NCBI GenBank assembly: GCA_017427385.1
Contig: JAFRSW010000019.1
Span: 62,001-126,000, forward strand
Length of the DNA: 64,000 nt
From: Bacteroidales bacterium
Lineage (GTDB): Bacteria > Bacteroidota > Bacteroidia > Bacteroidales > UBA932
Direction: 5' to 3'
Shown here: in pieces, positions 3,012 to 61,996 of the stretch
Numbering within the stretch: the stretch's first letter is position 1
How the letters are laid out: every line of letters begins with the position of its first letter
Made by a program: the position numbers and the translations under genes
Notes under the pieces: model-generated
Told to the model about the DNA's origin: nothing
Databases searched by the model: none
The model's input: only the letters and a program-made list of their open reading frames with translations

Positions 3012-4225
3012 TGCGTTCCCGTTGGATGAGTATATGGATGCAAGTGGCAGCATACATTTTGCTGCCACTGGCATTTGTTTCCTGCGGCGAGACCATTACG
3101 CCTGAAGATCCCTTCGAACCGTCCATCAGCACGAAGGAGAGTCAGGTGAGCAGTGACGACGGATTCGTCTATGTGATCATCGGCGCCAAGGGCGAGTGGA
3201 CCATAGACCTTCAGTATCCTGCCGAAGGCCCTTCGGACTGGGCGACCATGGATCCCGCCTCTGGCGTTGATGTGCCCCCGGCTGCGCGTCTGCGTTTCAG
3301 CCAAAACGAGTCCGAAGAATCCAGGACCGTCACCCTGGTGCTGAACAATCGCGGCAAGCAGGTTTCCACGACAGTGGAGCAACTGGGGCACTCCGAGCCG
3401 GTGCCGCCTCCGGGACCAACCCCGGGCGCATACGGATACGGAGAGGATGTCTGCAAGGCCGACTGGCTGGAACTGCCCGAAACCAAGGCCGGTGACGGCT
3501 GCGAACTCCTGATACATGACATGGAGGGCAAGAAGTACACCACCCAGGCCCAGAGCGGGGTGCGCAACTGGTCCTGCTACTGGAGCTACGACGAGCACGT
3601 TTCCTACTGGGTGGCTTATCCGCACAACAGCGCGCTGATCGGAAAGGGCAGCCGTTCGGACGCATGGGGCGTTTTTGATCCCATAATTCCGTCCAGCATG
3701 CAGCCGAATATGGGATATACCTATGGAGGTGGATGGACGCGCGGACACCAGATCGCTTCCGCAGACCGCTATATCTCTCAAGCCAACAGGTCTACCTTCT
3801 ATCCCACCAACATGACTCCTCAGGATTACGATTTCAATGCGAAAATCTGGGCCAACCTGGAGAATCAGATCAGGAACTATGCGTCCACGTCGGACACCCT
3901 GTACGTGGTTACCGGTTGTGTCCTGGAGGGTTCCAACACCTACTCCGGTAACAATTCGGGATTCACCGTGAAGGTGCCGGCCGCATATTTCAAGGCCGCC
4001 CTGCAGAAGAGCACCAGCACGTCCGTCGGCTACAGCGGATGGCGTGCCGCCGCATGGTACATGCCACATGACTCGGGTATAGCAACAGGCAATTACAAAT
4101 CTTATGTGATGACGGTAGACGCCCTGGAGGCAAAGCTGGGTTACGACCTGTTCGTCAACCTGCCTGCCAAGGTGGGCAAGGACCTCGCAGATAAGATCGA
4201 AGCCGACTGCAACTGGGCCAAATAA
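3011..4225 (+). CDS. DNA/RNA non-specific endonuclease lipoprotein with BACON domain
   Basis: The 404-residue protein has a lipoprotein signal ending ...LAFVSC (Cys25), a BACON-like domain (about 38-128), a proline-rich linker and a C-terminal beta-beta-alpha-metal nuclease domain (about 150-404). The nuclease core is TRGHQIASADR with catalytic His246, and Asn282 in IWANLE is the expected metal ligand; both fit the NucA/Serratia nuclease family. It should cut DNA and RNA of any sequence outside the cell, tethered to the outer membrane. The start overlaps the upstream stop by 1 bp, which suggests translational coupling; Met6 and Met10 are alternative starts that keep the signal. The next gene follows after 20 bp. 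Confidence 0.9.
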   Translation: MRSRWMSIWMQVAAYILLPLAFVSCGETITPEDPFEPSISTKESQVSSDDGFVYVIIGAKGEWTIDLQYPAEGPSDWATMDPASGVDVPPAARLRFSQNESEESRTVTLVLNNRGKQVSTTVEQLGHSEPVPPPGPTPGAYGYGEDVCKADWLELPETKAGDGCELLIHDMEGKKYTTQAQSGVRNWSCYWSYDEHVSYWVAYPHNSALIGKGSRSDAWGVFDPIIPSSMQPNMGYTYGGGWTRGHQIASADRYISQANRSTFYPTNMTPQDYDFNAKIWANLENQIRNYASTSDTLYVVTGCVLEGSNTYSGNNSGFTVKVPAAYFKAALQKSTSTSVGYSGWRAAAWYMPHDSGIATGNYKSYVMTVDALEAKLGYDLFVNLPAKVGKDLADKIEADCNWAK

Positions 4226-53577: not shown

Positions 53578-55305
53578 CTATTCTTTTATGAAAGGCTGGA
53601 GGTATTCCGCTATACGCTCCATCCAGGTGTAGCTGCCGGTGCCCGGGGAGGCGGTCCGCTGGAAGCAGTGGGGGCGGAGGGCAAGGGTATGCAGTTCGCT
53701 CTGGATCCCCATCGCACGCATCTTCTCCCAGACTTTCACGGAGTTCATTGCGGGCCAGGAGTCGGCATCGCCGTGGATGAAGAGCATCGGTGCGGTGTCG
53801 AGGTCGAAAGTGAACTCGGGCACAAGCGCGTCGGAATCCTCATTTCCTCCCGGCATGTTCTTGCTCCAGTCGGAGTTGCCCTCAAGGGCATATGCGGGAT
53901 AGATGCCGATTCCCCACTGCACCTTGCAGGAGAGTTTGTCTATGTTGTCGATGGGATAGTAGCTCTTGTGGCGGGAGGATGTGACCCCCATGAGGGTGAG
54001 ATGGCCTCCGGCGGATGAGCCCATGATGCCTATGCGCTTAGGATCCAGCCCGTGGGAAGGGGCCTCGCTGCGGACCACCCTAATGGCTCGCTGAAGGTCC
54101 TGCCAGGCGGTGGTGTGCTTGGCCAGGGGTGCGGCCGGGCGGGGAGTGCGGTATTTGAGGGTTACCACGGTGATTCCCAGGGAATTGAGGTATCTGCGTA
54201 TGGGCGCAACTTCGAAGTCGTCCGGATTGTTGCCGGTATAGCTTCCTCCGGAATAGATTATCTGGATTGCATGGGTCTGCAACTGATGGGGGAAGTGCCA
54301 TTCGATGTAAGGCTCGCACTGGTTCTCCTGGCGGTCCGGCATCTTGCCTTCCGGCCAGATGGCTTCTTTCTTGTAGCCTGCGCGGTCCTCATCGGAAGGG
54401 AAGCGGTCCATAATCTTCTCTTCGGGCTTCACGGGGCCTAGGTAACCCATCTGGGTCATGAATTCCACCGCCCTCTCGAAGCCGAACGCTCCGTGGGGCT
54501 TGTTGGGATAGAGGTGGAGTTCGGCGGGAACCTTGCGTTTGCGCAACTCCCTGTAAACCAGCGTGGAACCGTTGGGGGAGTAGGGGTCCTTGCCTCCGTG
54601 GTGAAGGCTGACGGGGCAGGTGTGGCCATCGAACTTGAAGACCTTGCTTATGGTAACATCCTTGCCATATCCTTCGCGGGGTGCCGGGATGCCTTTTTCA
54701 TCGGCATCGGAAGTGACGTATGCCGGTGCATTGGCCACCGCCCAGTTGATGTGGCAGGGCACGGCATCCAGTTTATCTATAGGTTCGTATGCAGGAGTCT
54801 CCGAACTGGTGGCCAGCAGCAGGGTGAGATGCCCGCCTGCAGACATTCCTATCGCTCCTATCTTTTCGGGGTCGAAACCGCGTTTCTTGGCTTCGCTGCG
54901 GACCATGCGAACGGCCCTCTGGCCATCTTCCCAGGCAGTCTGGTAGTAGGGAATACCCTTCGGACGGGTGGTGCGGTATACGAAATTGACGCACTGCACG
55001 CCAAGCTTTGTGAACTCCTCATGCCACATCTTGATCAGCCCCACGTCGCAGCAGTTGTAGTAACCGCCGCCGGAAATCAGGATCATACACGCTCCGTTGG
55101 GGTTGGAAGGCTTTTCGAACCACTCCAGATACGGGATACGGTACTCGTCCGGGTTGAAGCCTTCCGCCTTGGAAACATCCGTCATAGCGGCAATCTGATG
55201 CGCCTGCGTGTCCGGCATCTTGCCGGCCGGCCAAATATACTCGCGTTCCCACGCACCGAGCTGCAGGGAGACGAAAATGAGGATAAGGGAGAGAATCTTT
55301 TTCAT
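53578..55305 (-). CDS. Secreted tandem-domain esterase (two BD-FAE/Aes-like alpha/beta hydrolases)
   Basis: The 575-residue protein has a signal peptide (about 1-18) and two alpha/beta-hydrolase domains that are clearly copies of each other: both begin IWPxGKMPD (about residues 25 and 315). Domain 1 has Ser in GAIGMSAGGHLTLL, Asp in HHGGKDPYS and His in NKPHGAFG; domain 2 has Ser in GIMGSSAGGHLTLM, Asp in HGDADSW and His in RPHCFQ. Both triads look complete. The family includes acetyl-xylan and other carbohydrate esterases, so it probably deacylates plant glycans, but no polysaccharidase is adjacent. TATATTTG lies 4 nt before the ATG. Confidence 0.88.
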   Translation of the reverse strand: MKKILSLILIFVSLQLGAWEREYIWPAGKMPDTQAHQIAAMTDVSKAEGFNPDEYRIPYLEWFEKPSNPNGACMILISGGGYYNCCDVGLIKMWHEEFTKLGVQCVNFVYRTTRPKGIPYYQTAWEDGQRAVRMVRSEAKKRGFDPEKIGAIGMSAGGHLTLLLATSSETPAYEPIDKLDAVPCHINWAVANAPAYVTSDADEKGIPAPREGYGKDVTISKVFKFDGHTCPVSLHHGGKDPYSPNGSTLVYRELRKRKVPAELHLYPNKPHGAFGFERAVEFMTQMGYLGPVKPEEKIMDRFPSDEDRAGYKKEAIWPEGKMPDRQENQCEPYIEWHFPHQLQTHAIQIIYSGGSYTGNNPDDFEVAPIRRYLNSLGITVVTLKYRTPRPAAPLAKHTTAWQDLQRAIRVVRSEAPSHGLDPKRIGIMGSSAGGHLTLMGVTSSRHKSYYPIDNIDKLSCKVQWGIGIYPAYALEGNSDWSKNMPGGNEDSDALVPEFTFDLDTAPMLFIHGDADSWPAMNSVKVWEKMRAMGIQSELHTLALRPHCFQRTASPGTGSYTWMERIAEYLQPFIKE

Positions 55306-55375: not shown

Positions 55376-56059
55376 ATGACCAAAAACCAAGAGGTGAAGG
55401 TGATAGAGATCAAGAAGAGCATCTTCGCCGACAATAACGCCGATGCGGACAATCTCCGCAAAGAGCTGAAGGACAAGGGAGTATTCCTCCTTAATTTGAT
55501 GTCGTCCCCCGGGAGCGGCAAAACCACCACGCTTATACGCACGCTGAATCTGATTAAAGATAAGCTGCGTGTGGCGGTGATGGAGGCGGATATCGACTCC
55601 GACGTGGATGCCGTCAAGATTAAAGAGGCCACAGGCATCGAATCCATCCAGCTCCATACCGGCGGGATGTGCCATCTCGATGCGGAAATGACCCGCCAGG
55701 GCCTGGACAACGTGCCGTTGGACAGCCTGGATCTGGTAGTATTGGAGAACGTGGGCAATCTGGTCTGCCCGGCCGAGTTCGACACCGGGAGTTGCCGCAA
55801 TGCCATGATTCTATCCGTGCCGGAAGGGCACGACAAGCCACTCAAATATCCCCTTATGTTCTCGGTCTGCGACCTTGTGCTCGTGAACAAGACCGACGTG
55901 ATGCCATACTTCGATTTCGACCTTGCAGAATGCGAGGAGTATGTGCATATGCGCAATCCCAAAGCCACCGTCATCCCCATCTGCGCCAAGACCGGCGAGG
56001 GGGTGGAGAAATTTGCCGGGTGGCTCCTGAACGAAGTGAAAAACTGGAAAGAGAACTGA
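55376..56059 (+). CDS. hypB: Hydrogenase/urease nickel incorporation GTPase HypB
   Basis: The 227-residue protein is a HypB-type SIMIBI GTPase: P-loop SSPGSGKTTT (43-52), VAVMEADIDSDVDA, the metal-site Cys99-His100 in GGMCHLDAEM, ENVGNLVCPAEFD and NKTDVMPYF. HypB uses GTP to drive nickel delivery by HypA to [NiFe]-hydrogenase large subunits. It lacks the His-rich and CxxCGC N-terminal nickel-storage motifs. It is the first gene of a five-gene operon, 3 bp before the flavoprotein gene. No hydrogenase subunit or hypCDEF gene is in the window. Confidence 0.94.
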   Translation: MTKNQEVKVIEIKKSIFADNNADADNLRKELKDKGVFLLNLMSSPGSGKTTTLIRTLNLIKDKLRVAVMEADIDSDVDAVKIKEATGIESIQLHTGGMCHLDAEMTRQGLDNVPLDSLDLVVLENVGNLVCPAEFDTGSCRNAMILSVPEGHDKPLKYPLMFSVCDLVLVNKTDVMPYFDFDLAECEEYVHMRNPKATVIPICAKTGEGVEKFAGWLLNEVKNWKEN

Positions 56060-56062
56060 TAT

Positions 56063-58891
56063 ATGCCTGAAATGTCCACCAAGTTCGTCCCCAAGCATTT
56101 TGGCGACAAGAACCCCAATCCTAAACTTATCAAGTTCGTGCGTCACGTCACCGACCGCGTTCCCGGCAAGATCAAGATGACTACGGAAGCCCCCGAATAC
56201 TGGGGCCTTGCCTGCATCTTTGAAGACGAAATGGACGCCGCCACCCGCGAAGCGTCGCTGGACCTCCTGCTGGCCATGCTTCCCGGCAGCCCCTTCAAGG
56301 TGCGCAAGCATTGGACATACGCCCAGCTGCACACGCTGAACGCTGAAAAGCATTTCACCCCGGACGATGCCAGCCTCGACGAATTGCTGGACAAACTCGC
56401 CTATTTCGGCATGCTTGAATATGACTATGGCGACAAGTACACCGACGACGGTCCCGTGCCCGGCACCACCTACAAGCGGGAAGACCGCATTTACTGGGTG
56501 CCTATGTTCGTGCCCGGCAGCGCCGAGTATACCAACATGAACACAGACCTGATGGACCGCCATCCGGAACTCGCGATGTTCTTCGAGCGTATGACCTTCC
56601 TCCCCTTGGAGAAGATCACCCCGATGGTGCCAATGGGCGGATCCGGCATCGGCATGCACGTCATCCCGGTGGAGAAGGCTATAAGCATGGAGAACCAGTC
56701 GGTCAGCATCGAGCACATCTCCTACTGGCTGAAGAAGTACGAAGGCCACATCGGCGTGGGCATCTGCTCCTGCCGCTACGGCCGCAAGAAGCTGGATGAG
56801 GGCTGTGCGGACGACTACCGCGACTGGTGCATAGGCGTTGGCGACATGGCGGACTACCTCCGTGAGACCGGCCGCGGCCACGATATTACCTACGACGAGG
56901 CGATGGCTATCCTCAAGAAGGCTGAGGATCACGGTTTCGTGCACCAGATAACCAATATTGACGGCGAGGGCAAGATCTTCGCCATCTGCAACTGCAACGT
57001 CAAGATCTGCAACGCGCTGCGCACCTCGCAGCTCTTCAATACTCCCAACCTGAGCCGCAGTGCGTATGTGGCGAAGGTGGATCCCAAGAACTGCGTGGCT
57101 TGCGGCCGATGCGTGGAGTACTGCCCGGCCGGTGCCGTCAAGCTCGGCCAGAAACTCTGCACCCAGCACGGTCCCCAGACCTATCCCAAGCAGGAACTGC
57201 CGGATGCGGTCGCATGGGGCAAGCACAAGTGGAACGAGGACTACCGGGACCGCAACCGCATCAACTGCTACCCGACCGGCACAGCACCCTGCAAGACCGC
57301 GTGCCCCGCGCACATCGCCGTGCAGGGCTACCTGAAGAAGGCCGCCGAGGGCAATTACACCGAGGCGCTCGAGCTCATCAAGCGCGAGAATCCCTTCCCG
57401 GCCGTGTGCGGACGCATCTGCAACCGCCGTTGCGAGGATGCCTGCACCCGCGGCACCATCGACAAGCCCATAGCCATCGACGCGGTGAAGAAGTTCATCG
57501 CGGAGCAGGACCTGAACGCCGAAACCCGCTTCATCCCCGAGGTGAACATATGCTCCAACGTTGAGGAGCGCTGGCCCGAGAAGATCGCCGTCATCGGCGG
57601 CGGCCCCGCGGGTCTCTCCTGTGCCTACTACCTGGCCACCATGGGATACAAACCGACCGTGTTCGAGAGGAACGCCGAGCCCGGCGGAATGCTCCGCTAC
57701 GGCATACCTTCATATAAGTTGGAGAAGGATGTGATCGCCGCTGAAATCGACGTGATGCGTGAGATAGGTGTGGATATCAGGTGCGGCGTCGAGGTGGGCA
57801 AGGACGTAACCATCGCCGGTCTGCGGGAAGAAGGATACAAGGGCTTCTACGTGGCCATCGGCTGCCAGGGCGGACGCCTGCCCGGCATTCCCGGCGAGGC
57901 TCTTCCCGGCACAACTACTGCCATCGATTTCCTGCACGATGCCAACTGCGGCAAGGTGAAGGTGAGCGGCAAGGTGGTCGTGGTTGGCGGCGGCAACGTC
58001 GCCATCGACGCGGCGCGCGTGGCAAAGCGCAGCGGTGCGTCCGAGGTGACCATGCTGTCGCTGGAGACCGAGGACATCATGCCCGCATCCCTCGAAGAGC
58101 GCACCGAGGCCCGCGAGGACGGCGTTGTTCTGAATCCGGGCTGGGGCCCGAAGGAAGTGCTGGGCGACGGCAAGGTGAGCGGAATCGTGTTCAAGAAGTG
58201 CACATCCGTGTTCAACGCAGAGCACAAGTTCGCCCCGGAATACGATGAAAATGAATTGATTACGCTGGATGCCGACATGGTAATCTTCGCCATCGGCCAG
58301 ACCGTGATACTGAAAGACCTGCTCGCCGGCACCAAGGTGGAATTCTTCCGCGGAGTGTACCCGGTGGCGGACAAACTGACCTACCAGACTGCCGAGCCCG
58401 ACATCTTCGTGGGCGGCGACTGCTTCACCGGTCCTAAGTTCGCCATTGATGCCATCGCGGCCGGAAAGGAGGCCGCCGAGAGCCTGCACCGCTACGTGCA
58501 GCACGGCCACATGACCATCGGCCGCAACAGGCGGGACTTCATCGAGCTTAACAAGCAGGATATCCTGGTCGAGAGCTACGACAACGGCTCCCGCCAGGAT
58601 CCGGGCGTGAAGCCCGCTCCTAACGCGTTCGCGGAGTACCACGGCACCCTCACCGAAGAGCAGGTGCTCAAGGAAACCGCCCGCTGCCTCAGCTGCGGCG
58701 CATCCGTGGTGGACGAGAACCGCTGCATCGGCTGCGGCATCTGCACCACCAAGTGCGGCTTCGACGCCATCCACCTCTACCGCGAGCATCCCGAGGCCAG
58801 CAAGCTGATCACCTCCGAAGACAAGTTCAGCGGCATTCTCCCGTACATGATCAAGCGCACAGGAAAGATATTGTTCAGTAAAAAGAAGTAA
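56063..58891 (+). CDS. Fe-S flavoprotein oxidoreductase, GltD-like with extra ferredoxin domains
   Basis: The 942-residue cytosolic protein has an unrecognised N-terminal part (about 1-330, with a CSCRYG and a CNCNVKIC motif), a 4Fe-4S motif CVACGRCVEYCP (Cys344-354), a GltD-type Fe-S domain (about 405-470; PCKTACPAH, VCGRICNRRCEDAC), two Rossmann folds (FAD GGGPAGL at 512-518; NAD(P) GGGNVAIDAAR near 642) and a C-terminal ferredoxin domain (CLSCG, then CIGCGICTTKCG near 889-900). It should move electrons between NAD(P)H and a low-potential partner. Lying between hypB and hypA, which overlap or nearly touch it, it may serve a nickel enzyme; partner unknown. Confidence 0.88.
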   Translation: MPEMSTKFVPKHFGDKNPNPKLIKFVRHVTDRVPGKIKMTTEAPEYWGLACIFEDEMDAATREASLDLLLAMLPGSPFKVRKHWTYAQLHTLNAEKHFTPDDASLDELLDKLAYFGMLEYDYGDKYTDDGPVPGTTYKREDRIYWVPMFVPGSAEYTNMNTDLMDRHPELAMFFERMTFLPLEKITPMVPMGGSGIGMHVIPVEKAISMENQSVSIEHISYWLKKYEGHIGVGICSCRYGRKKLDEGCADDYRDWCIGVGDMADYLRETGRGHDITYDEAMAILKKAEDHGFVHQITNIDGEGKIFAICNCNVKICNALRTSQLFNTPNLSRSAYVAKVDPKNCVACGRCVEYCPAGAVKLGQKLCTQHGPQTYPKQELPDAVAWGKHKWNEDYRDRNRINCYPTGTAPCKTACPAHIAVQGYLKKAAEGNYTEALELIKRENPFPAVCGRICNRRCEDACTRGTIDKPIAIDAVKKFIAEQDLNAETRFIPEVNICSNVEERWPEKIAVIGGGPAGLSCAYYLATMGYKPTVFERNAEPGGMLRYGIPSYKLEKDVIAAEIDVMREIGVDIRCGVEVGKDVTIAGLREEGYKGFYVAIGCQGGRLPGIPGEALPGTTTAIDFLHDANCGKVKVSGKVVVVGGGNVAIDAARVAKRSGASEVTMLSLETEDIMPASLEERTEAREDGVVLNPGWGPKEVLGDGKVSGIVFKKCTSVFNAEHKFAPEYDENELITLDADMVIFAIGQTVILKDLLAGTKVEFFRGVYPVADKLTYQTAEPDIFVGGDCFTGPKFAIDAIAAGKEAAESLHRYVQHGHMTIGRNRRDFIELNKQDILVESYDNGSRQDPGVKPAPNAFAEYHGTLTEEQVLKETARCLSCGASVVDENRCIGCGICTTKCGFDAIHLYREHPEASKLITSEDKFSGILPYMIKRTGKILFSKKK

Positions 58892-59232
58892 TGCACGAAC
58901 TGGGAATAGTATTCTACATCATCAAGGACGTCAAGAAGGCGGCCTCGGAACACGGCGTCCAGCATGTGAACGCCGTTGTGATGAACATAGGAGAAGTATC
59001 CACCATCGTGCCCGATTACCTAACCGACTGCTGGCGCTGGGCGGTTACCAAGGAGCCCATGCTGGACGGTGCCGAACTGCGCATCAACACCATCCCGGCG
59101 GTAACCCATTGCGATGCCTGCGGGAAGGAGTACGAAACCGTCCGCTACGGAAAAACCTGCCCGCACTGCGGGAGTGCCGAGACCTGGCTGCTGCGCGGTA
59201 ATGAAGTAGAAATCAAACAAATAGAAGTATGA
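58891..59232 (+). CDS. hypA: Hydrogenase maturation nickel metallochaperone HypA
   Basis: The 113-residue protein starts MHELGIV, with the nickel-binding His2 of HypA, and has the zinc site Cys74-x2-Cys77 and Cys90-x2-Cys93. It delivers nickel together with HypB. The ATG overlaps the flavoprotein stop (TAATG), and the next gene overlaps by 4 bp, so the operon is translationally coupled. Confidence 0.94.
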   Translation: MHELGIVFYIIKDVKKAASEHGVQHVNAVVMNIGEVSTIVPDYLTDCWRWAVTKEPMLDGAELRINTIPAVTHCDACGKEYETVRYGKTCPHCGSAETWLLRGNEVEIKQIEV

Positions 59233-59519
59233 GTTGTTATATTATTCCACTTGCGCAGGCTGCGCTGACCAGCGTCTGCCGCAAGGCCGGTTGGAAGACC
59301 GGATTCATCGGCCGCAACCTGGCATCTCTTGAAATGATGCTCTGGGGCGGTTCCGTCATGCTGGTCGTAGATCACGCAATCAATGGAGAACTGTTCGCCT
59401 GGACTCCGATGGAGATGCTTAAAGTCGGGGTGCCGATGAGCGTGGCCATAACCCTGGTATGGTTGGGCTACGCTATGATTAAGGAATACAGATCGAAACG
59501 TTTAGTTACTAACCAATAA
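59229..59519 (+). CDS. Small membrane protein of the hyp operon
   Basis: The 96-residue protein has two or three hydrophobic segments (about 32-52 WGGSVMLVVDHAINGELF and 65-83 VGVPMSVAITLVWLGYAM), a short N-terminus with two Cys (MSCYIIPLAQ, TSVCRKAG) and a basic C-terminus. I do not recognise the family. Coupled to hypA by a 4-bp overlap and 8 bp before the large membrane protein gene; it is probably a subunit or helper of that protein. Confidence 0.75.
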   Translation: MSCYIIPLAQAALTSVCRKAGWKTGFIGRNLASLEMMLWGGSVMLVVDHAINGELFAWTPMEMLKVGVPMSVAITLVWLGYAMIKEYRSKRLVTNQ

Positions 59520-59527
59520 TTTTTACT

Positions 59528-60625
59528 ATGTTTTTCCAAGTTTACGGGGCTAATGCCCTTTCTCAGTGGGGGATGTTGATAGTGGTCCTTCTGGGACTCA
59601 TCCTCTTCAATGAATTCGCCCGTCGCACCAAGCTGGGCGGCATCATCACCTTCCTTGCCATTCCTGTCGCTCTCACCGCCTACTTCCTGGCCATTTGGCT
59701 TGGAGTGCGCAGCGGAGCACAGTGGGCACTCGAGAATCAGACCCATATCTACATGCAGGGCTGGTTCCACTATGCCAAGCTGTATGCCGCGACCGCAGGG
59801 TGCATCGGTTTCATGATGATCAAGTACAAATGGGGCGTAGGTGCAAAGCACTGGTTCAAACCCTTCCCCTTCATCATCGTGGGTATCAACATCCTCATCG
59901 CCTGCGTCTCCGACTTCGAGAGCGCGGTGATGGGCTGGAACAAGTGGTGGCTCACCTCCGAAGGCGTCTGGCAGTACGGTGGCTGGCATAATGTGATGAA
60001 CGGCGTGGCAGGTCTGATCAACATCATGTGCATGACCGCATGGTGGAACGTCTATCCTTCCAAGGATAAGAAGGATATGATCTGGGCCGACATGACCTGG
60101 GTCTACATCGTGATCTACGATATCTGGAACTTTGCCTACACCTACAATTGCCTGCCTACCCACAGCTGGTACTGCGGTATCGCACTGCTTCTCGCTCCTA
60201 CCGTGGCAGCTCTCTGCTGGAACCGTGGCGGCTGGATCCAGAACCGTGCCAACACCCTCGCAATCTGGTGCATGTTCGCACAGGTGTTCCCTCTCTTCCA
60301 GGAGACCTTCAAGAATGGTCAGCAGTGGTTCAGCTGGGCAACTCTGCCTGTGCTTTATCCCGAGGGAGTGAACACCATCAGCAAGCTCTATGAGGTTGCC
60401 GGCGGCGAAGCTGCAGTAGTCGGAACCACAGTGGATCCTTCCGTGGTGGCAGCCAATCCCACGATGATGACAGTCATCAGCGCCCTGGCCCTTGTAACCA
60501 ACATCGCTGCCATCTGCTGGATCATCTGCATCTCCAAGAAGCGTCACATCAATCCTTACAAGGAAGACGTCTTCGTGGATCAGAAGTACTACAAGGATGC
60601 TATGGCCCGCGCCGACGTCGCCTAG
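59528..60625 (+). CDS. DUF5692-like polytopic membrane protein
   Basis: The 365-residue protein has about eight to nine transmembrane helices. It is very rich in Trp, Tyr and His near helix ends (QTHIYMQGWFHYAKLYA, KHWFKPF, GGWHNVMNG, YNCLPTHSWYCG). It resembles the uncharacterised DUF5692 family (from memory, not searched). It has no known transporter motif; the conserved-looking His/Trp residues could bind a metal, haem or quinone. It is the last gene of the hyp operon and is followed by a strong terminator. Confidence 0.8.
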   Translation: MFFQVYGANALSQWGMLIVVLLGLILFNEFARRTKLGGIITFLAIPVALTAYFLAIWLGVRSGAQWALENQTHIYMQGWFHYAKLYAATAGCIGFMMIKYKWGVGAKHWFKPFPFIIVGINILIACVSDFESAVMGWNKWWLTSEGVWQYGGWHNVMNGVAGLINIMCMTAWWNVYPSKDKKDMIWADMTWVYIVIYDIWNFAYTYNCLPTHSWYCGIALLLAPTVAALCWNRGGWIQNRANTLAIWCMFAQVFPLFQETFKNGQQWFSWATLPVLYPEGVNTISKLYEVAGGEAAVVGTTVDPSVVAANPTMMTVISALALVTNIAAICWIICISKKRHINPYKEDVFVDQKYYKDAMARADVA

Positions 60626-60655: not shown

Positions 60656-60690
60656 AAACCGTCTGGTGCATTTTCACCAGACGGTTTTGT
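60656..60690 (+). terminator. Intrinsic terminator of the hyp operon
   Basis: A perfect 13-bp stem (60656-60668 with 60675-60687) around a CATTTT loop is followed by a short T run. It ends the hypB-DUF5692 operon and stands between it and the convergent antiporter gene. Confidence 0.88.
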
Positions 60691-60721: not shown

Positions 60722-61996
60722 TCAGGCTTGCCGGGGGAAGCGGAAGATGATGGCGGCGACAGCGAAGAAGAGCAGGGCCAGGGGGTAGTACAGATATCCG
60801 ATGATGGATGCCACACTGATGCCGGCCAGGCCGGAGGCCATCAGCAACTGGGCGCCATAAGGGAGGAATCCCTGCACTATGCAGGAAAAAGTATCCAGAA
60901 TACTAGCTGACCTTCTGGGATTTACCCCGAAATGCGTTGCTATATCCTTGGCAATGCTGCCGGTAGTAATGATTGCAATGGTATTGTTGGCTGTGCAGAC
61001 GTTTGCCAGAGCCACAAGCGCAGCTATGCTGAATTCTGCTCCCCGACGCCCGTTTATGCGCCTGGTGAGCAGATTGATGATATAATCTATCCCTCCGTTA
61101 ACTCGGATGATCTCCAGCATTCCCCCTGCCAGCATCGTAACTATGATGAGGTCGCCCATCGAGGCTATCCCGGTACCAGCGGATTCCAGGAATCCGGTCC
61201 ACTCGTATTTACCGAGCGATAGCCCGATCACTGCATTTAGCAATATGCCTATGCTCAACACGCCCATTACGTTCATTCCCATCAAAGCCAGCACGATTAT
61301 GCTTAGATATGGCAATAACAATAGGAAATTGCTCTCTACCGTAGGAGCGGAAGCTTCGAATCCCTGCCCCAGGAATATATACAGTACTGCAACAACAATT
61401 GCGGCCGGACCGGCAATCCAGATATTAGTCTTGAATTTGTCGGCCATTGAACAGCCCTGGCTACGGGTCGCTGCTATGGTGGTATCAGAAATAAATGACA
61501 GGTTGTCTCCAAAGAAAGCACCACCTACTATCGCCGCCACAATCATCGCCAGAGGTGCTCCAGTGCCTTCTGCAAGGCCCGAAGAAATAGGCACAAGGGC
61601 CACAATCGTGCCCACGCTGGTGCCGATGGCCATGGAGATGAAGCATGCTGCAACGAACAAGCCGACCAGAATGAATCTCCCGGGAAGAACACGCAGGGTG
61701 AAAGCCACTGTAGCATCGATACTGCCTATTGCACTGGCGGTAGAGGCAAAGACTCCAGCCAGCACGAAAATCCAAATCATCAGCAGCACGTTGTGGTCGC
61801 CAGCTCCTCTCGAGAATAATCCTACTCTCTCTTCTATTCCGCCTTTCGTTATCAGCAATGCATAGGCAGATGCCAGAAGGAAGGCAGCAACAACCGGCAC
61901 CTTGTAGAAATCTTTAGCGATGAAAGACGATACAAGGTAAACTCCCAGAAAGACCAGGAGGGGGCTCAGCGCCAGAATGCCGCGGCCTTTCGTCAT
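60722..61996 (-). CDS. NhaC-type Na+/H+ antiporter family protein
   Basis: The 424-residue protein has about 11 transmembrane helices with the NhaC-family features FVLAGVFASTASAIGSIDAT, GTSVGTIVALVPI and GGAFFGDNLSFISDTTIAATRSQG. It probably exchanges Na+ (or an organic ion) for protons. Its ATG overlaps the stop of the S41 protease gene by 4 bp, so the two share a transcript. Confidence 0.9.
   Translation of the reverse strand: MTKGRGILALSPLLVFLGVYLVSSFIAKDFYKVPVVAAFLLASAYALLITKGGIEERVGLFSRGAGDHNVLLMIWIFVLAGVFASTASAIGSIDATVAFTLRVLPGRFILVGLFVAACFISMAIGTSVGTIVALVPISSGLAEGTGAPLAMIVAAIVGGAFFGDNLSFISDTTIAATRSQGCSMADKFKTNIWIAGPAAIVVAVLYIFLGQGFEASAPTVESNFLLLLPYLSIIVLALMGMNVMGVLSIGILLNAVIGLSLGKYEWTGFLESAGTGIASMGDLIIVTMLAGGMLEIIRVNGGIDYIINLLTRRINGRRGAEFSIAALVALANVCTANNTIAIITTGSIAKDIATHFGVNPRRSASILDTFSCIVQGFLPYGAQLLMASGLAGISVASIIGYLYYPLALLFFAVAAIIFRFPRQA

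Follow-up and report, generated by a model that had tools for sequence, protein, structure and literature searches.

A HypAB-flavoprotein-DUF5692 operon of rumen Bacteroidales that resembles the isr operon of Acetobacterium

HypA and HypB, the textbook helpers of hydrogenase and urease, go together with a single large redox enzyme in an operon of a rumen Bacteroidales genome, and no classical client for the pair was found in the same-genus genomes searched. Judged by its sequence, with IsrA compared by published positions, the operon belongs to a kind already described in 2023, here seen in a rumen Bacteroidales genome. We propose, with moderate confidence, that it encodes an IsrA-type oxidoreductase, here called FOX, together with its own maturation pair, HypA and HypB, which would bring metal into FOX, and a membrane partner, and that FOX reduces C=C bonds. 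The observations behind this proposal are the genes, their order and co-occurrence, the motif spacing of FOX, the separate clade formed by HypA and HypB, and the lack of any match in the genus to the classical clients searched for.

Genes and signals of the operon

The window (the whole 64,000-nucleotide stretch analysed) comes from a 1.93-Mb draft genome that is 77.75% complete. Five open reading frames, all on the + strand, follow one another in the order hypB, FOX, hypA, MP96 and DUF5692 with intergenic gaps of 3, -1, -4 and 8 bp; recomputed coordinates and gaps were identical to those in the preliminary description of this DNA. The features are:

55376..56059, + strand: hypB, a type-1 HypB GTPase of 227 aa (TIGR00073, 228.5 bits)
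56063..58891, + strand: FOX, a 942-aa IsrA-type Fe-S flavoprotein (Pfam/NCBIfam matches and motif spacing)
58891..59232, + strand: hypA, a divergent HypA metallochaperone of 113 aa (PF01155, 113 bits)
59229..59519, + strand: MP96, a small membrane protein of 96 aa (hydropathy; no Pfam/NCBIfam family)
59528..60625, + strand: DUF5692, a multi-pass membrane protein of 365 aa (PF18948, 422.9 bits)
60656-60668 and 60675-60687, + strand: arms of a perfect 13-bp inverted repeat with a 6-nt loop (from the sequence, arms checked)

The preliminary description had bounded the operon by a promoter and by this perfect stem. The stem is indeed present at 60656-60687 and, from its sequence, is likely to be a terminator, though it was missing from the list returned by our terminator scan (5 hits in total, 4.9 expected). 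Genes converge on it from both sides, and it may act for both. The promoter fared less well: none was predicted on the + strand upstream of hypB, and the number of promoter-like sites (4 versus 2.6 expected, sd 1.6) was near chance. The convergent gene (60722-61996, - strand) encodes an NhaC-like Na+/H+ antiporter, may share the 13-bp stem and is no recurring neighbour of the operon in relatives. On the other side, the divergent upstream neighbour (53578-55305, - strand) encodes a protein of 575 aa that gave two matches of esterase type (BD-FAE/alpha-beta hydrolase).

Both maturation proteins carry the metal-binding residues that had been ascribed to them. HypA begins with MHE, which supplies His2 and Glu3, and has CxxC pairs at 74 and at 90, while HypB, which exceeds the TIGR00073 cut-off of 121.2 bits, has Cys99-His100 and Cys131 in its G-domain. 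The first 40 residues of HypB contain no His, meaning that it has no His-rich N-terminus. Against TIGR00100, the NCBI model for hydrogenase HypA, HypA scored 76.1 bits, below the cut-off of 88.1, and we therefore call it a divergent HypA; the HypA of the operon's clostridial counterpart, from Subdoligranulum, likewise stayed below the cut-off (71.6 bits).

Conservation and distribution of the module

We surveyed the best 80 of 361 related stretches, among which the nearest named loci were from Bacteroidales MAGs, and the record titles that named a site referred to the rumen, another stomach or the gut of sheep, goats, yaks, buffalo and deer. The survey of gene order that had been suggested at the outset showed conservation beyond chance, with all five genes in order in 56 of these best 80 loci and a further 9 lacking only a detectable MP96. 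HypA followed FOX in all 75 loci in which FOX was uncut by the locus end, HypB preceded FOX in 78 of the 80 (locus L100 is cut), and in the five loci that held HypB and FOX alone FOX was invariably cut at the locus end. No DUF5692 stood beside the core in L081 and L096, despite full-length flanks, or over 3.7 kb in L123. Gaps between the aligned genes ranged from -1 to 183 bp, indicating that order is kept while spacing drifts. Apart from ORFs antisense to the operon, no other gene family recurred in the flanks of more than 10 of 81 loci, as judged with a crude ORF caller that recovered FOX itself in 66 of the 81, and the operon looks like a self-contained module.

Across 72 same-genus genomes, FOX was present in 33, or close to half (counted at E <1e-100, with an edge fragment in G036 left out), HypA in 30 and DUF5692 in 33; 28 genomes had all three and 35 had none. 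Fisher values for this co-occurrence overstate the case, since the related genomes are not independent and are draft MAGs. In all four cases of FOX without HypA (G002, G051, G061 and G062) the contig end cuts FOX before HypA, and G011 holds HypA and DUF5692 with the cut C-terminal end of FOX. HypA was thus found in the genus only alongside FOX, whole or as a truncated piece. DUF5692 is itself cut at contig ends in G004, G036 and G059, as is a second piece in G002, and G043 (89% complete) has the full core without DUF5692.

Rearranged yet complete gene sets are better evidence than these counts. DUF5692 was retained on a separate contig from the core in G008, G014, G034 and G065 and lay in the opposite orientation in G022 and G031, and in G018 three genes (DUF5692, MP96 and HypB) point away from FOX and HypA. 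What is new here, at the level of sequence comparison, is further support for counting HypAB and DUF5692 as parts of the module, with DUF5692 kept even when unlinked. The lineage-specific character of MP96 and the failure to find the classical HypAB clients that were sought are new as well.

The clostridial copy, in Subdoligranulum variabile (OY725877.1), has the order hypB-FOX-hypA-DUF5692, with identities of 69, 62 (over 1-941 of FOX), 48 and 55%, and differs in having no MP96 and a GntR/FCD-type regulator divergently upstream. In trees of HypA and of HypB (37 rows each), the operon copies joined the single Subdoligranulum copy with support of 100/96 and 100/100, respectively. In both trees, in which the tree tool flagged long branches, this operon clade stood apart from the proteins of the order's other families, represented by 12 HypA and 13 HypB rows from 14 genomes, 12 of them with a PF00374 match. 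Transfer between Clostridia and the genus would fit these sequences, in which one clostridial copy was seen and from which the direction is our inference.

MP96 has one strong hydrophobic segment and is only 38-56% identical between genomes. It is absent from the one clostridial copy seen and was undetected beside the core in G014, G034 and G054, and on these comparisons it is a lineage-specific accessory, leaving DUF5692 as the only widely shared membrane partner. This weakens the membrane pair originally envisaged as partner of the flavoprotein.

The flavoprotein and its relation to IsrA

As first described, FOX has 942 residues with Fe-S and FAD sites: 4Fe-4S motifs at 344-354 and 888-898, a Fer4_20 match at 402-485 and an FAD/NAD(P)H domain (Pyr_redox_2) at 507-801. 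Residues 1-335 (window 56063-57067) had no Pfam or NCBIfam match and are a domain not described in these collections, parts of which are kept in the clostridial copy. Within it, Cys235, 237, 248, 256, 309, 311 and 316 were invariant across the aligned FOX sequences and are kept in the clostridial FOX. Cys235/237, Cys309/311 and the Fer4 motif at 344 correspond to positions 180/182, 254/256 and 289 of IsrA, a constant offset of 55 at five places, with the IsrA positions taken from published numbers (PMC10134865). The clostridial FOX shows the same motif spacing (212, 286 and 321).

At E 1e-20, none of 394 further genomes drawn from the phylum matched FOX, which likewise fits transfer between Clostridia and the genus. 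Its Cys-rich region was matched (model positions 150-371, E 1e-16 to 1e-18) by short ORFs of 354-426 aa from three other families of the order (G079:C4:122325-122819, G085:C299:5558-6067 and G087:C183:3684-4343), showing that proteins other than FOX can carry the Cys-rich domain, which is not unique to HypAB operons. In this the short ORFs recall the ferredoxin that the isr operon encodes as a protein of its own.

Residues ~400-813 of FOX resemble the FAD modules of NfnB, GltD and dihydropyrimidine dehydrogenase, and the structurally solved proteins related to it in sequence comprise Nfn/GltD-type subunits, dihydropyrimidine dehydrogenase and comparable parts of larger oxidoreductases. This likeness would suit an electron-bifurcating or plain NADPH:ferredoxin oxidoreductase in place of a C=C reductase, with HypAB metallating one cluster for another reason, and bifurcation has been considered for IsrA (PMC10134865). 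We hold such an enzyme to be quite unlikely, however, given that all these matches start at residue 345 or later and leave the Cys-rich N-terminal 335 aa uncovered, and given that IsrA is up on isoprene with a log fold change of 10.7 (PMC10134865).

IsrA is the putative isoprene reductase of Acetobacterium, and is called putative by its own paper (PMC10134865); a 2025 genome note refers to the Acetobacterium set as a putative diene reductase cluster (PMC12509576). The features that liken FOX to the IsrA-type ("clade 9") proteins are its length (942, for ~900 aa), the FAD/NAD domain, Fer4_20, two further 4Fe-4S sites, the published N-terminal CxC...CxC spacing, and hypA, hypB and DUF5692 nearby. 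Its motif spacing and neighbour families thus match published IsrA, making it an enzyme of a known kind. The preliminary description had taken the system to be possibly undescribed. Yet Kronen et al. 2023 (PMC10134865) already report HypAB in association with the oxidoreductase, DUF5692 as a neighbour and the suggestion that nickel is inserted; there nickel is proposed at the Cys6 site of the IsrA-type oxidoreductase and, among 988 IsrA homologs, HypA is near 73%, HypB near 56% and DUF5692 near 40%. The neighbourhood network of these clade 9 homologs shows the same neighbour families and includes Bacteroidetes among its phyla; MP96, the five-gene order and rumen Bacteroidales are not described for clade 9 in the sections of that paper that were consulted (PMC10134865).

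The isr operon of A. wieringae ISORED-2 and strains Y and N encodes IsrA, two HypA, HypB and a 4Fe-4S protein (PMC10134865, PMC12509576). Like the rumen operon, it joins a ~900-aa FAD/Fe-S oxidoreductase of the same Cys motif spacing with HypA and HypB, but it has another HypA and a stand-alone ferredoxin-like protein where the rumen operon has DUF5692 and MP96. Neither an additional HypA nor a separate 4Fe-4S ferredoxin is among the five genes, and the source genome has one HypA match. An isoprene link is known for the isr operon, whereas none is known for the rumen operon.

Clients, membrane partner and proposed function

The client of HypA and HypB might simply be an ordinary one, a [NiFe]-hydrogenase or a urease encoded in the part of the genome that is missing from a draft only 77.75% complete. 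We searched for such clients beyond the source genome. The [NiFe]-hydrogenase large subunit (PF00374) was found in none of the 72 same-genus genomes, and HypD and urease alpha were found neither in the source genome nor in the other same-genus genomes searched (0 of 44); the source genome, at its 77.75% completeness, also gave no match to [NiFe]-hydrogenase or CODH/prismane. In other families of the order, PF00374 was matched in 19 of 47 genomes (15 over the cut-off) and HypD in 9 of 28. Together with the separate HypAB clade, and with the restriction of HypA in the genus to genomes that hold FOX or a truncated FOX, these results make a missing ordinary client extremely unlikely. The hydrogenase locus that was to have overturned the preliminary description was sought and not found, and the parts of its reading that survive are the failure to find a classical client in the source genome and the same-genus genomes searched and the tie of HypAB to the flavoprotein and DUF5692, borne out by conserved order and co-occurrence; its novelty is not supported, and its membrane pair is weak. 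The ISORED-2 genome, similarly, is without [NiFe]-hydrogenase structural genes (PMC10134865).

The source genome also encodes a LarA-family (lactate racemase-like, nickel racemase) protein (G000:C22:5878-6333, E 1.8e-9), and nickel may accordingly have another user there. LarA is served by LarBCE and is not known to rely on HypAB.

The preliminary description had counted genomes with the flavoprotein and membrane proteins but no hypAB as evidence against it. In this respect, one FOX locus, L126, has HypA and no HypB within 2.9 kb upstream, and DUF5692 occurs alone on a 592-kb plasmid of Latilactobacillus curvatus (CP117684.1, 7929-8858), with no hypAB or FOX nearby. The latter suggests that DUF5692 probably has a function of its own, which carriers of FOX use. 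The Latilactobacillus gene lies three genes from an azoreductase gene.

DUF5692 has 80 invariant positions across 22 Bacteroidales rows, Subdoligranulum and Latilactobacillus, many of them polar, including N28, E29, H81, K84, D129, D188, D198, N201 and H212; one copy with an internal TAG stop (L019, from G040) was left out of the alignments. A fold search with its predicted structure (pLDDT 71.6) gave no clear match. In the arrangement first envisaged, FOX would do no more than supply electrons, and catalysis would fall to DUF5692 (with MP96) as a membrane complex that receives its nickel or zinc from HypAB. The number of polar residues, among them H81, H212, D129 and D198, that are invariant in this multi-pass protein speaks for such an arrangement, as do the retention of DUF5692 with the core even when unlinked and the GltD/NfnB-type electron-transfer unit at ~400-813 of FOX. 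It is nevertheless unlikely, as the unusual Cys-rich site sits in FOX, DUF5692 exists without FOX or HypAB nearby, and MP96 was unseen in the single clostridial copy. Moreover, HypA tracks FOX more than DUF5692 does (73% versus 40% of the 988 homologs), and in the published reading the flavoprotein itself is the reductase (PMC10134865).

We therefore return to FOX as the reductase. Here the substrate, the nickel and the role of DUF5692 are our own extrapolation. HypB, as GTPase, and HypA would insert nickel (or another metal) into the N-terminal Cys-rich site of FOX, CxC...C...C...CxC...C. NAD(P)H would reduce the FAD, and electrons would pass over four [4Fe-4S] clusters to the Cys-rich site, where a poorly activated substrate could be hydrogenated, as an electron sink or for detoxification. 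This substrate would most plausibly be a rumen compound, of plant or lipid nature, with a conjugated or isolated C=C bond. DUF5692 would most likely handle the hydrophobic substrate or dock FOX at the membrane, with substrate handling for a hydrophobic compound the simplest guess, and MP96 would be an accessory of the rumen Bacteroidales lineage. Observations that count against this model include DUF5692 without FOX nearby in Latilactobacillus, the core without DUF5692 in G043 and with none beside it in L081 and L096, the Cys-rich region in short ORFs outside HypAB operons, and the LarA-family protein as another potential nickel user.

A nickel-bearing FOX would add one more kind to the nickel enzymes, and its rumen copies would then be a testable candidate for an enzyme that hydrogenates unsaturated compounds in ruminants, a matter that touches both fat quality and hydrogen sinks. 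A bolder version, which we rate as a long shot, is that rumen FOX represents a new nickel-iron-sulfur enzyme class hydrogenating unactivated C=C bonds in plant compounds of the diet (conjugated fatty acids, terpenes or the like), with DUF5692 presenting the membrane-dissolved substrate, and that it is a hydrogen sink and an unrecognised part of rumen biohydrogenation. Oleate hydratase is a neighbour in two Acetobacterium species (PMC10134865); it had no match in the source or same-genus genomes and is no help to the fatty-acid reading. The divergent regulator gene of the Subdoligranulum locus (3210-3977, - strand) encodes a protein of the GntR/FCD (FadR-type) family, whose ligand could point to the substrate.
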